Assembly: GCF_003627995.1 (NCBI RefSeq)
Contig: NZ_CP032707.1
Span: 231,001-295,000, forward strand
DNA from: Brevundimonas naejangsanensis
GTDB taxonomy: Bacteria > Pseudomonadota > Alphaproteobacteria > Caulobacterales > Caulobacteraceae
Reading direction: 5' to 3'
DNA length: 64,000 nucleotides
A program made the position numbers and the translations under genes. This document shows, one piece after another, positions 18,852 to 61,266 of the stretch. The notes below the pieces were generated by a model. It worked only from the letters and a program-made list of their open reading frames with translations, was not told the origin of the DNA and searched no databases. Each line of letters starts with the position of its first letter. Positions within the stretch are counted from its first letter, which is position 1.

Positions 18852-18950
18852 AAAACCCCCGTAGCGAGGGCTGCGGGGGTTTGGGATCTTGGGTGCGGGA
18901 GCAGGATTTGGGCGATACCTCATACCGATAATCCGATTTATGACGTAACT
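18852..18950. repeat. left copy of att-like direct repeat with tRNA-fMet 3' end
   Basis: The first 59 bases (18852-18910) are identical to 28878-28936. Weaker similarity, interrupted by single mismatches, continues for about 40 bases. The 21-base stretch 18890-18910 equals the 3' end of the tRNA-fMet gene at 61190-61210. The sequence to its right is not tRNA, so this is a junction and not a tRNA gene. It is read as the left attachment site of an integrated element. Confidence 0.75.
18853..18882 (-). terminator. hairpin terminator in the left att-like repeat
   Basis: AAACCCCCG and CGGGGGTTT form a stem, with an inner AGC/GCT pairing. On the minus strand the stem ends in a run of T. In the ancestral arrangement it would terminate transcription coming out of a tRNA-fMet/rRNA operon. 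Confidence 0.5.
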
Positions 18951-19119
18951 ACGCTGGTGGCGTTCAAAGCCCCCATGCCCGATTAGAGAAGCCGGTCATT
19001 TGTGTCCTACCCGAAAGAGGACATTCCAATGCCAGTGCCGACGTCCGCTTTCGGGAGAGGAGCTTAGAACCGAATTCGACCGTACCAGACTCGCAGAGCG
19101 CCAGCTTTTCGCATCGGGT

Positions 19120-19354
19120 CTACAAGCGCCCACACCGCCAAGGACGTCTCGGCGCTAGGCCCAAGCCCGCCGTATGCAAGGGGATCGCGACGTAGGCCAG
19201 CGCCTGCCATTCGACCAAGGCGCCTAGCGGCCCGCCATCAAATCCTATCGCCAAGGTAACGTTGAGGAGGAGCCGGTGGCCTGCCTCCATCGCCGTGCAG
19301 ATCAGGATGACGGCCAGCGCGCACCGCGCCGGCGTCGGGTGAGTTTGCGCTCAT
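19120..19354 (-). pseudogene. broken small membrane-protein gene
   Basis: From ATG 19354 the frame starts MSANSPDAGA and soon loses sense. A shifted frame then continues as a hydrophobic segment (ALAVILICTAMEAGHRLLL... TLAIGF...AYVAIPLHTAGLG) to a stop at 19120. It follows the DUF3429 gene after eight bases and was probably the third gene of that operon. The family is not recognised and the call rests on the hydrophobic reading only. Confidence 0.35.
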
Positions 19355-19362
19355 CTTGAGCG

Positions 19363-19807
19363 TCAAGTCATGAATTCGGCGGCGACTAGGCACAGACCAA
19401 CCGTCAGGGTCAGCCATAGACGAAGTCGGCCATACCACTCGGGAAGGTCGCCCAGCCTGACACATCTCAGGTCATAGACCAGAAAGAGCAAGAAACCGGC
19501 GGCCAGCCGGACCAGACCGATCGGCGTCGGGGCGAACGCCATGCCCCAGCGCCGGGAGGACGCTGACCGCATAGGGCGACAGCCGAGCTTCGCTGCGCAA
19601 CGTCGCGACGCCCCAGTGCACGCCGCCCATGAAGGACAGAATGACCGCCCCGTAGAGCCGAAGCGCGCCCGCGACCTGGTCGGGATCGCCCAGCCCGAAC
19701 GCCAGAGCCCCCGTCAGGACGGCAAAAGGCAGGACCCCGGACCAGCCCAGGATCATCGCCGGGCGCGGGGCCTGGGTCACGGCCTCTTGCTCCCGCGTTC
19801 CAGGCAA
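19363..19807 (-). pseudogene. DUF3429 membrane protein gene, frameshifted
   Basis: The first part encodes GWSGVLPFAVLTGALAFG...YGAVILSFMGGVHWGVATL...SVLPAL, a typical DUF3429 start with the GGVHWG motif. The rest of the family (WGMAFAPTPIGLVRLAAGFLLFLVYDLR...) continues in another frame to 19363. The break lies in the run of four C at 19544-19547, where one fewer base would restore a single frame. DUF3429 proteins are small inner-membrane proteins often found beside DCC thiol-disulfide proteins, as here. The start may be ATG 19756 (MILGWSG), since the longer version overlaps the DCC gene by 31 bases. Confidence 0.65.
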
Positions 19808-20199
19808 CGAACGACCGTCTGCAGACGAGGACGAAGGCGCAGGAAACCTCTGTAGGCGAGCTCCAGAATTCCGCCAACAGGTCGGGTCGCCGCTAGTCGG
19901 CCCAGCCAGCTCAGGGCCGGAAGCTCGCGCCAGACCGCGGCGAAGGCGGCGGCTCCGCTAACGGTCCGGCCGTCTGAACCGCGCACATGAAACCGCCGCA
20001 GCAGCGCGGCGCGATCCATGTCCCCGACGTCATGTCGCGTCACATCGAGAAAGGACAGCCGACGGTGACGGTCCAGCCGCCGCATGACCCTGATTTCCCG
20101 AGAGCAGAGCGGGCACCCGCCGTCGTAATAGACGATCATGCCGGAGGCCGGCGCCTCTGTCCGATCATGAAGACGCGTCACGGTCTCGAAACTCCACAT
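19777..20199 (-). CDS. DCC-family thiol-disulfide protein (DUF393)
   Basis: A 140-residue protein with the diagnostic N-terminal YYDGGCPLC motif (Cys29 and Cys32 from the chosen start) and the R-x-x-x-LDRHRRLSFLDV stretch. The family is thioredoxin-like and thought to act in disulfide chemistry. ATG 20199 is chosen because GACGAGG lies just upstream; the longer frame to 20388 runs antisense-like into the neighbouring gene and adds low-complexity residues. It is followed by the DUF3429 gene, a common pairing. Confidence 0.75.
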   Translation of the reverse strand: MWSFETVTRLHDRTEAPASGMIVYYDGGCPLCSREIRVMRRLDRHRRLSFLDVTRHDVGDMDRAALLRRFHVRGSDGRTVSGAAAFAAVWRELPALSWLGRLAATRPVGGILELAYRGFLRLRPRLQTVVRCLERGSKRP

Positions 20200-59468: not shown

Positions 59469-59543
59469 AAGCACTCCACGGGTTGAAAGTTCCCGCAGAA
59501 TGCGATAGCCAGCTAGCAATGTCAAGCTACAGGCAAAGTAAGC

Positions 59544-59561
59544 CTTATAAACCCTTATAAG
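59544..59561. promoter_or_regulatory. inverted repeat in the divergent recombinase promoter region
   Basis: CTTATAA-ACCC-TTATAAG is an 18-base inverted repeat midway between the start at 59468 (minus) and the TTG at 59620 (plus). Its position suits an operator for a regulator or accessory protein of either recombinase operon. Confidence 0.45.
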
Positions 59562-59619
59562 ACGGCACGACAGGCGGCGTCAACCGCTTTTTTGCAGAAA
59601 ACTTCAAACGGGAAATCCC

Positions 59620-61233
59620 TTGGTCCTTCGCCCCAAGAAACGCGCCATCTACGGTCGCCACTCCTCCGACCTCCAGAACGCCCGGTCGACCACAGACCAG
59701 ATCGCACTGCTGCGCGAGGCCAGCCGAGCCGAGGGCATCACAGACGTGCTCGTGTTCAGAGATGAGGCCGTTTCCGGCAGCGCGATCGCCAATCGGCCAG
59801 GCTTGCGCGCCCTCCTCGCTGCGGTGGAGCGCGGCGAAGTCAGCGACGTCATGGCTGAGGCGCTCGATCGACTGTCGCGCGACCAGGAGGACATCGCCGG
59901 CATTTTCAAACGCCTGGCCTACGCCGGCGTCGCACTGAAGACCCTGGCCGAAGGCCCGATCGACAGGATTCACATCGGACTGAAAGGCACGATGAACGAA
60001 CTCTTCCTGCACGACCTGGCCGTAAAAACGCGTCGAGGCCTGACGGCGCGGGTCAAGGCCGGCTTCTCGGGCGGCGGCCGCTGCTATGGGTATGACATCA
60101 TCGGCAAGGGCGAACTGCAGCCCAACGCCCATCAGGTCGACGTGATCCGCTCGATCTTCGCGCGTTACGCGGATGGGGAATCGCCCCGCGCCATCGCCCA
60201 TAGCCTGAACGCGGCAGGCGAGTCCGGGCCGCGCGGCGGGACATGGACGCCGTCGACCATCCATGGCGACCGCCGCACCGGCGACGGCATCCTGCACCAG
60301 GAGCTCTATATCGGCGTGCGGGTGTTCAATCGGCGTCGCTACCGCAAACACCCCGACACCGGACGCCGCTCCTCGGTGCTGAATCCGCCGGAAGACTGGA
60401 TCCGTCAGCCCGCTCCGGAACTGCGCATCATTGATAATGAACTCTGGGCGCGGGTGCAGAACCGCAAAGCGGAACTGTCCGCCCTGCCCGCCGCCCAGGG
60501 TCGCAAGCCGAAACGCCTCCTGTCAGGCCTGATGAAATGCAAGCAGTGCGGCTTCAGCATGACCCTGAACGCCAGCAAGTATAATTGCAGCGGTCACCGC
60601 GAACGCGGGACCTGCTCCAACGGCAAGATCATCGCCGCCAAGACGGTGGAAGAGCGCGTCCTCACCGGCATCAAGACCCACCTGCTGTCGCCGGAAGCGA
60701 TCGCGGAGGCCGTCAGAACCTTTCATGTCGCGGCGGAGACGGAGCGCCGCGCGCTTCAGGTCGAACGGGCGCCGCTGGAACGCGAACTGGCGGAGATTGA
60801 GCGCAAACTGAAGCGCGCGCAGACTATGTGCCTGGACGGCGCGATCGAAACGGAAGAACTGAAGACGATCAGCGCGCCGCTGAAAACCCGCCGGAGCGAA
60901 ATCCAATGCCGACTGGCGGCCGACGCCGCCCCGTCGGTGATTCAGTTGCACCCCGGCGCCGCCGAGGCCTATCGGCGCCTCGCCGAGAACCTGCACCAGG
61001 CCATCGAGGGCGAGGATGGCGAAGAGGTGCGTGCGGAGCTGCGCAAACTGATCGACCGGGTGGACTTCATCCCGATGGAAGGCCTGGGCAAGTTCCAGTT
61101 GGAAGTCCACGGCAGCCTTGCGGCGCTGTTGGCGCTGGGCCAGGCCCAGAAAGCAGAAAACCCCACAGGGGGTACCTGTGGGGTATCACTGGGTGCGGGA
61201 GCAGGATTTGAACCTGCGACCTTCAGGTTATGA
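59620..61233 (+). CDS. large serine recombinase adjacent to tRNA-fMet
   Basis: About 537 residues from TTG 59620, which follows CGGGAAATCCC; no ATG is available in frame. Residues about 8-150 are the catalytic resolvase domain with YGRHS (Ser15 as nucleophile) and ALDRLSRD. The recombinase domain (GYDIIGKGELQPNAHQV...) and a zinc ribbon (CKQCGFSM...CSN) follow. The last 30 residues (about from QAQKAENP) are translated from a terminator hairpin and from the antisense strand of the tRNA 3' end (AGFEPATFRL), so the natural C-terminus was probably set by the attachment site. It is the probable integrase of the 28.9-61.2 kb element. Confidence 0.9.
   Translation: MVLRPKKRAIYGRHSSDLQNARSTTDQIALLREASRAEGITDVLVFRDEAVSGSAIANRPGLRALLAAVERGEVSDVMAEALDRLSRDQEDIAGIFKRLAYAGVALKTLAEGPIDRIHIGLKGTMNELFLHDLAVKTRRGLTARVKAGFSGGGRCYGYDIIGKGELQPNAHQVDVIRSIFARYADGESPRAIAHSLNAAGESGPRGGTWTPSTIHGDRRTGDGILHQELYIGVRVFNRRRYRKHPDTGRRSSVLNPPEDWIRQPAPELRIIDNELWARVQNRKAELSALPAAQGRKPKRLLSGLMKCKQCGFSMTLNASKYNCSGHRERGTCSNGKIIAAKTVEERVLTGIKTHLLSPEAIAEAVRTFHVAAETERRALQVERAPLERELAEIERKLKRAQTMCLDGAIETEELKTISAPLKTRRSEIQCRLAADAAPSVIQLHPGAAEAYRRLAENLHQAIEGEDGEEVRAELRKLIDRVDFIPMEGLGKFQLEVHGSLAALLALGQAQKAENPTGGTCGVSLGAGAGFEPATFRL
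61156..61184 (-). terminator. terminator of the rRNA/tRNA-fMet operon
   Basis: ACCCCACAG and CTGTGGGGT form a 9-bp stem with a 7-nt loop 3 bases beyond the tRNA 3' end. On the minus strand it is followed by TTTTCTGC, so it is a good intrinsic terminator. It lies within the recombinase reading frame on the other strand. The same position in the older repeats holds a different stem. Confidence 0.75.
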
Positions 61234-61266
61234 GCCTGACGAGCTACCGGGCTGCTCCATCCCGCG
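61190..61266 (-). tRNA. initiator tRNA-fMet (CAU)
   Basis: The gene reads 5'-CGCGGGATGGAGCAGC... with anticodon loop CTCATAA (CAT), D-arm and T-arm (GGTTCAAATCC) all intact. The C1 x A72 mismatch and three G:C pairs in the anticodon stem region mark an initiator tRNA. The 3' end reads CACCCA with encoded CCA, giving C at position 73, where E. coli has A. The 3' end of this gene was used as the attachment site of the integrated elements. Confidence 0.95.

Follow-up and report, generated by a model that had tools for sequence, protein, structure and literature searches.

Probable serial integration of serine-integrase islands at the initiator tRNA gene of a Brevundimonas rRNA operon, with a predicted exchange of the integrase C terminus

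Large serine integrases of the phiC31 and Bxb1 type recombine at attP sites that form inverted repeats around a central dinucleotide. Here we describe islands bounded by such a site in Brevundimonas naejangsanensis, in a window of 64,000 nucleotides (bases 231001–295000 of a single 3.0-Mb contig; genome 3,002,429 bp) that ends within an rRNA operon and its initiator tRNA gene (tRNA-fMet). The integrase shares with the phiC31/Bxb1 type the Resolvase–Recombinase–Zn ribbon architecture and an inverted-repeat attP with a central dinucleotide, but differs in its tRNA-gene target and in having attP inside its own open reading frame (ORF). We give a probability of roughly 0.87 to the reading that at least two related elements integrated successively at the tRNA-fMet 3' end via large serine integrases, the integrase C terminus being swapped each time.

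Several described systems share parts of this arrangement; what we say of them refers to the accessible sections of each paper. In the Dehalococcoides ssrA islands, the 3' end of the DsiB gene overlaps att and its stop codon lies beyond the island, and the authors considered that the gene is perhaps fully functional only in the circular form (PMC3146451). These islands resemble ours in standing in tandem at an RNA gene and in having a serine integrase with its 3' end over att, but their target is tmRNA, with insertion in the T loop, and a small recombinase, DsiA, is also present (PMC3146451); the target here is tRNA-Met. Those sections describe no degron or terminator for the Dehalococcoides islands (PMC3146451). 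In the integration-dependent immunity of the mycobacteriophages BPs and Brujita, attP lies in a coding gene, the target is a tRNA, and a C-terminal -AA tag of the viral form is lost on integration (PMC9262239, PMC9934374, PMC6109161). There the repressor is switched, alongside a separately tagged tyrosine integrase (PMC9262239), whereas here attP lies within the integrase ORF, the serine integrase itself would switch, and its new end would come from the antisense tRNA. The -AA tag on the unintegrated form is absent from the window, where the predicted end is -FIS, and present in the relative G338. According to Islander in 2014, the integrases known to target tDNAs were all of tyrosine type (PMC4383910). 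Our islands are like those of Islander and TIGER in occurring in tandem and in being bounded by an intact tRNA at one end and its 3' fragment at the other (PMC4383910, PMC12424338), but serine recombinase domains stand at the tRNA end, unlike the tyrosine integrase of the Islander definition (PMC4383910). A resource from 2025 may hold serine/tRNA cases, its accessible passages giving tRNA sites undivided by integrase type (PMC12424338). A literature search limited to titles and abstract starts, without preprints and with few subscription papers, found no serine integrase with tail exchange. What appears to be new is a tRNA-targeting serine-integrase family in which gene, terminator-like hairpin, and att are superimposed and the tail would change on integration. 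If serine integrases act on the initiator tRNA, here the final gene of its rRNA operon, this would account for the stacking of defence cargo at that place (DarTG here; in two relatives BREX genes, type I restriction, and a helicase of Zorya type), and the family would offer site-specific integrases for a conserved target.

Core Copies and Integrase Genes

An earlier note on the window had proposed serial accretion at tRNA-fMet from three copies of a 21-base tRNA 3' end, two of them lacking the rest of the gene. We found exact copies of TGGGTGCGGGAGCAGGATTTG (21 bp, the tRNA-fMet 3' end) at 18890–18910, 28916–28936, and 61190–61210, written on the plus strand as the antisense of the tRNA. The window holds no further match even at ≤2 mismatches, and 0 of 100 shuffled sequences contained three matches; the whole genome has five exact copies, and a reversed-pattern control had 0. 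ARAGORN predicts a single tRNA in the window, at 61190–61266 on the minus strand with anticodon CAT, so that only the 61.2-kb copy lies inside a complete gene. This tRNA stands whole at the element end; at higher coordinates lie the 5S (61326–61440) and 23S (from 61523) rRNA of the operon (61326–64000), both on the minus strand. The cores are 10,026 and 32,274 bp apart, matching the sizes of about 10.0 and 32.3 kb that had been given for an older and a younger island. Segments 18852–18954 and 28878–28980 are 89% identical over 103 nt, and since this identity exceeds the core on both sides, the non-tRNA right arm (P') claimed for the two older copies (18911–18954 and 28937–28980) is real.

The integrase at the tRNA is an intact plus-strand ORF of 537 aa (59620–61233) with Resolvase, Recombinase, and Zn-ribbon domains and a PHROG integrase match; its close relatives are labelled Brevundimonas. 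The frame has no stop before att, passes through a hairpin and the predicted crossover, and ends in antisense tRNA-fMet (...GFEPATFRL), which supplies the last ~14 codons. To the left of the 28.9-kb core, the decayed 3' part of a serine integrase (27940–28877, plus strand) was found where the note had described one: matches at about 27940–28928 cover residues 203–221 and 220–528 of the intact protein at 64% identity, with one stop per piece, and no match to the first ~200 residues was found at this copy. Judged from this decay, the 10.0-kb island would have been inserted before the 32.3-kb one.

The order predicted for such a history, flank–core–arm, recombinase–core–arm, recombinase–core–tRNA, holds in sequence and polarity, which fit serial integration, but not in every arm, the one left of the 28.9-kb core being of host type and not a plain integrase-side arm (below). 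The broader claim of serial accretion gains support from order and polarity, from the attP of the younger pair, and from tandem cores elsewhere.

Attachment Site

Joined in sequence, the 61.2-kb left arm and 28.9-kb right arm rebuild attP as an inverted repeat with its centre in GGG[A|G]C, and 11 of 15 outer positions pair. The crossover would fall at GGG[AG]C, at 61200–61201, the junction of T stem and acceptor in the tRNA. Among ten elements for which symmetry was scored, the A|G centre was the best of 70 centres in six, in a ranking made without a shuffle control, and second in G227; the 66-kb junction of G353 and the second one of G327 were left out of this set, which preceded G338 and G114. 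The result is weakened by G294, G003, and the older island of the window, in which the A|G centre falls outside the top three. A fixed single base at which orphan cores leave the tRNA sequence was also considered. This argument was weak and we withdrew it, with no change to our estimate for serial integration, which rests on the other evidence, because the search pattern had demanded identity to that base and the break point was thus partly built in; the Brevundimonas elements G294, G353, G367, G330, G227, and G003 leave the tRNA sequence earlier, after GGGAGC. Conversion of a P arm to a B arm as a general need for tandem insertion was likewise dropped, as orphan cores of Leisingera keep integrase-end arms.

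The rebuilt site also bears on whether 18.9–61.2 kb entered whole as a composite element, the 28.9-kb core being an internal relic. In principle, the 18.9-kb copy could serve the intact integrase as the far end, its right arm being similar to the one at 28.9 kb. Against this, it is the 28.9-kb right arm that pairs with the 61.2-kb left arm, G+C shifts near 28.9 kb, and unit sizes vary in relatives such as G353. We consider a composite entry very improbable.

Host Flank and the Older Junction

To the left of the 18.9-kb core lies a host-type arm (18852–18889), consisting of a hairpin followed by GGGATCTTGGG, which would be the left half of attL and resembles the G026 arm adjoining the tRNA end. 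Beyond it and outside the islands is a flank gene with a FAA-hydrolase domain (weak Pfam match; 17832–18680, minus strand). An empty site in relatives, the comparison that the earlier note had suggested, is approached in G026. There, 195 bp separate the ortholog of the flank gene (79% identity) from the end of its contig, which breaks off at CCCA/TGGG behind a comparable hairpin and arm; contig C61 of G026 carries fMet behind 5S-like sequence and ends exactly at the tRNA (..CCCGCACCCA). These ends would together represent the empty site, evidence that is strong but indirect as the assembly is broken there. In G338, the host-type arm of the second fMet, gagatgcttGGG, corresponds to the attL arm at the fMet that is occupied, gggatgcttGGG.

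Other relatives weigh against a simple empty-site comparison. The flank gene lies hundreds of kilobases from fMet in G028, G039, G283, G227, and G327, 149 kb off in G001, 29 kb from its attL in G003, and on a different contig from fMet in some genomes, which suggests that rearrangement or further insertion is common. At the thresholds applied, the gene was present in 36/81 and 10/18 of the genomes searched.

A second difficulty for serial integration is the arm and hairpin after the decayed integrase (28878–28915): over 39 nt, the sequence left of the 28.9-kb core does not differ from the host-type left arm at 18.9 kb. Because this arm is host-like despite following an integrase remnant, the attP of the older island is not rebuilt as a symmetric site. 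The arm was probably altered after insertion and may reflect exchange between the copies, possibly by gene conversion, a reading that is unproven.

A Second Stack in the Same Genome

The two further core copies, at 1.294 and 1.302 Mb, belong to a second rRNA operon with fMet, the orphan core lying 7.9 kb on. This smaller stack (locus L006, 5669–13604; G000:C1 ~1.2937–1.3016 Mb) begins with the tRNA and an integrase C-terminal remnant (87% identical), continues through 7.9 kb of DNA, and ends in the orphan core and an older integrase remnant. With cores and integrase remnants at the second operon as well, both fMet genes found in the genome carry stacks. The neighbour of this locus (L006:14137–15942) was found in only 4/81 genomes, its own included, and thus gave no empty-site test. 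A terC RNA (Rfam RF03067) was predicted within the island here, at L006 12076–12131.

The orphan core at ~13.6 kb of L006 resembles the 28.9-kb junction in having the end of a decayed integrase and a host-like arm, and the P' arms of the two are near-identical. Such likeness suggests exchange between the loci and raises the question of whether duplication, or homologous recombination of one rRNA locus with the other, produced the core copies in place of successive integration. That origin fits poorly with the younger pair rebuilding a symmetric attP, with decayed and intact integrases that are merely 64% identical, and with orphan cores that enter non-tRNA arms in other genera (7/8), and we regard it as improbable.

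Related Integrases at tRNA Genes

Among 16 relatives in Genome Taxonomy Database (GTDB) contigs, the integrase ORF directly abuts antisense tRNA-fMet in 12, which come from Rhodobacteraceae genera, a Sphingomonadaceae metagenome-assembled genome (MAG), a Rhizobiales MAG, and B. naejangsanensis. All 12 are open in one common frame through arm and core, up to a TGA that lies antisense to the region of the anticodon. The ORF breaks off 783 nt upstream in L008 and 762 nt upstream in L022, and L011 has an interrupted tRNA. A wider set, from which viral contigs, ORFs of <420 aa, and ORFs with open ends had been left out, gave 41 genome-locus clusters at 90% identity. Of these, 23 bear the fMet tail, 9 that of another tRNA(CAT), and 1 both; the 8 others include L222, which ends beside tRNA-Met, and three second-type recombinases. 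Among 133 proteins, the core was read in frame 0 in 76, in frame 1 in 4, and in the third frame, which would traverse the tRNA, in 0. The ORF at L077 has the third core frame and falls outside the integrase matches.

Caulobacteraceae genomes show the same ORF-into-tRNA arrangement at another tRNA(CAT). The tail ..GGG[IL]EPPTCGL, antisense of that tRNA, is seen in L205, L206, L209, L210, L212, L214, L215, L216, and L026. In P0005, a 79% relative, the tail departs at an altered core (..MLRAKGRFANNTIDISA), perhaps a shift of target. On these gene arrangements, the integrases are predicted to be a family that targets tRNA genes in several alphaproteobacterial lineages. When viral contigs were searched with the integrase of the window, two matches to the pattern came up, neither of them a relative.

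Tandem cores are also found in relatives, with units of differing size, as in G353, where two orphan cores line up with a single integrase. Across Leisingera, Shimia, and a Rhodobacteraceae MAG, seven of eight orphan cores enter non-tRNA arms after GGATTTG, identity to that point being required by the pattern; the eighth, L093, is a tRNA-like duplicate. Separately, we observed fMet 3' halves severed at the same anticodon-loop base at G330:C481 51534, G353:C1 1922842, and L011 ~5585, with differing sequences beyond. A group I intron was considered for the interrupted fMet of L011 and had no Rfam match. As G330 and G353 share the break base with different sequence beyond it, a second kind of element is likelier than an intron, and the break is probably the work of another element, perhaps of tyrosine type, that entered the anticodon loop beside the serine stack.

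Integrase Tails in Circle and Chromosome

With attP inside the integrase gene, integration would swap the integrase C terminus. Joining island ends in silico gave an in-frame circular tail at 13 of 15 junctions; two of the 13 share the G353 integrase, two come from near-identical G114 copies, and one G114 pairing (144 kb) is doubtful. The clearest case is a 33-kb element of G338, where the circle would encode ..VVVGAGTGSNQNLTDIPVAFAA (-AFAA) and the chromosome encodes ..VVVGAGTGFEPVTFRL (-VTFRL). A pair of Leisingera integrases, 95% identical, bears two different tails. At the level of sequence, the joined ends show tail exchange to be general.

In the mechanism that we propose, the tRNA-fMet 3' end would serve as attB for large serine integrases, and two or more elements would enter in turn, each restoring the tRNA acceptor strand and each carrying a terminator-like hairpin within its integrase 3' end. 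Integration would replace the circular tail, encoded by the P' arm, with ..GFEP.TFRL from antisense tRNA. For a phage-like clade, a circular -FAA could mark the integrase for ClpXP-type proteolysis in the manner of the ssrA degron. The unstable integrase of a free element would then make integration occasional and prevent re-entry after excision; once integrated, the host-tRNA tail would let integrase accumulate, ready to excise when a directionality factor appears. If true, such integration-dependent stability would amount to a one-protein integration/excision switch. That tRNA-Met serine integrases alternate between a free -AA degron and an integrated tRNA tail as a self-acting stability switch limiting (re)integration, and carry a portable rRNA-operon terminator in the ORF, is a tentative proposal to which we give somewhat less than even odds.

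The degron part finds support in the tails of homologues. Of 4490 homologues, 120 were listed: 73 end in GFEP..FRL, 4 in another promptly stopping tRNA frame, and 1 in another tRNA-like tail, 12 proteins of <510 aa were dropped before tails were counted, and 30 are full-length without a tRNA tail. Ends in [FY]AA were found in 25 of these 30, against an internal AA frequency of 2.6%; the binomial P value of 1.8e-35 overstates the case, the sequences being related. The ending also occurs in an alternative core frame (P0055, P0062, P0079, P0102). On viral contigs, 70 integrases (ORFs with E > 1e-20 or falling short of query residue 400 having been dropped) had 36 tRNA tails, 28 non-tRNA tails, and 6 open ends, and 12 of the 25 distinct non-tRNA tails end in -AA versus 35 of 674 ORFs of the same loci, a control that includes the integrases.

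Several observations run counter to a degron. The circular tail rebuilt for the window, ..GFGRYLTPIISFIS, ends in -FIS. Only one of the 13 rebuilt tails, that of G338, ends in -AA; ten end in Ala, nine of them in a single final Ala (-VPA, -FTA, -FRA, -VSA, -ARA), and three in V or S. Circular-type tails observed in Rhodobacteraceae are without -AA and share no ending. Mapped on a tree with 117 integrases, the two kinds of tail switch 12 times, against a mean of 27 and a minimum of 22 after shuffling; -AA and tRNA tails are thus interleaved yet partly clade-structured, and part of the split may reflect lineage and not state. Deposited phages are mixed as well: -RFVA in Rhizobium phage RR1-A, -VIAA in Microcystis phage Mae-JY30, and -RRRA in Mae-JY29.

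It is quite possible, if on balance doubtful, that neither the extension of the ORF into the tRNA nor the -AA ending of tails serves a function, and that the frame just has no stop near attP. The DsiB authors, in the sections accessible, judged a functional tail unlikely (PMC3146451), and the Rhodobacteraceae endings and the single -AA among 13 rebuilt tails point the same way. A functionless tail has to contend with the common frame at 12/12 loci and the long-open frame in 0/133 proteins, with the [FY]AA excess in the listed homologues and its recurrence in an alternative frame, and with G338, where a single element shows both tails. Graded by group, the degron reading is strong in the phage-like clade and weak in the islands of Brevundimonas; the window lends it no support.

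Hairpin Within the Integrase ORF

In the window, a hairpin that may act as a terminator on the tRNA strand lies at 61161–61183 (minus strand), within the integrase ORF and overlapping the left arm (P). We proposed that elements carry such a hairpin because insertion parts the rRNA operon from its own terminator. In the stretch of 88 nt that follows the tRNA and lies within the ORF, folding was stronger than in dinucleotide shuffles at 28/28 loci (z −2.15 to −6.5). In a second run, z was below −2 in 22/23 att windows (mean −3.73), compared with 0/23, 5/21, and 1/21 at 150, 300, and 450 bases upstream; the loci of both sets, 28 and 23, were chosen by hand. A folded structure before the core is thus well supported, and the hairpin sequences vary between lineages. 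A looser test, which asked for a hairpin with a T-rich run after it, was positive at 25/28 loci of the first set; in the second run it was passed by 20/23 att windows but also by 9/23, 10/21, and 4/21 upstream windows and by 29/69 shuffles. The hairpin is a putative terminator. A further effect, the shortening of integrase mRNA by this hairpin, was considered as well.

Island Cargo

The older island (18911–28915, ~10.0 kb) encodes DCC1-like and HbpS-like proteins, an ABC/MacB/HlyD exporter, and a TonB receptor ahead of the decayed integrase, a cargo of exporter, receptor, and haem-protein-like genes. The younger island (28937–61189, ~32.3 kb) has a G+C content of 0.57–0.67 in 2-kb windows, versus 0.67–0.73 at 7–29 kb. 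Its right arm (28937–28980) would encode the circular integrase tail given above. Capsid, terminase, relaxase, and type IV secretion genes were not found among the island ORFs scanned, a scan that covered part of the ORFs. Further along are a protein of 2232 aa with RHS repeats and a transglutaminase core (30022–36720, minus strand) and type II secretion genes (39742–45203: secretin and GspG-like, minus strand; GspE and GspF, plus strand). A DarT/DarG toxin–antitoxin pair of an anti-phage defence family (51790–53486, minus strand) is adjoined by weak PADLOC candidate-defence matches (PDC-M30A) at 48288–49577 and 50611–51777, and two pieces of IS4/IS5-type transposase follow (53631–54394, minus strand). 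Among relatives, BREX genes are found in the fMet island of G294, and that of G338 holds type I restriction together with a helicase of Zorya type. A second large serine recombinase of 694 aa (56157–58241, minus strand) is 29% identical to the integrase and opposite to it in strand; the same pair is found in G016:C2 (41480–42988, minus; 45795–47414, plus).

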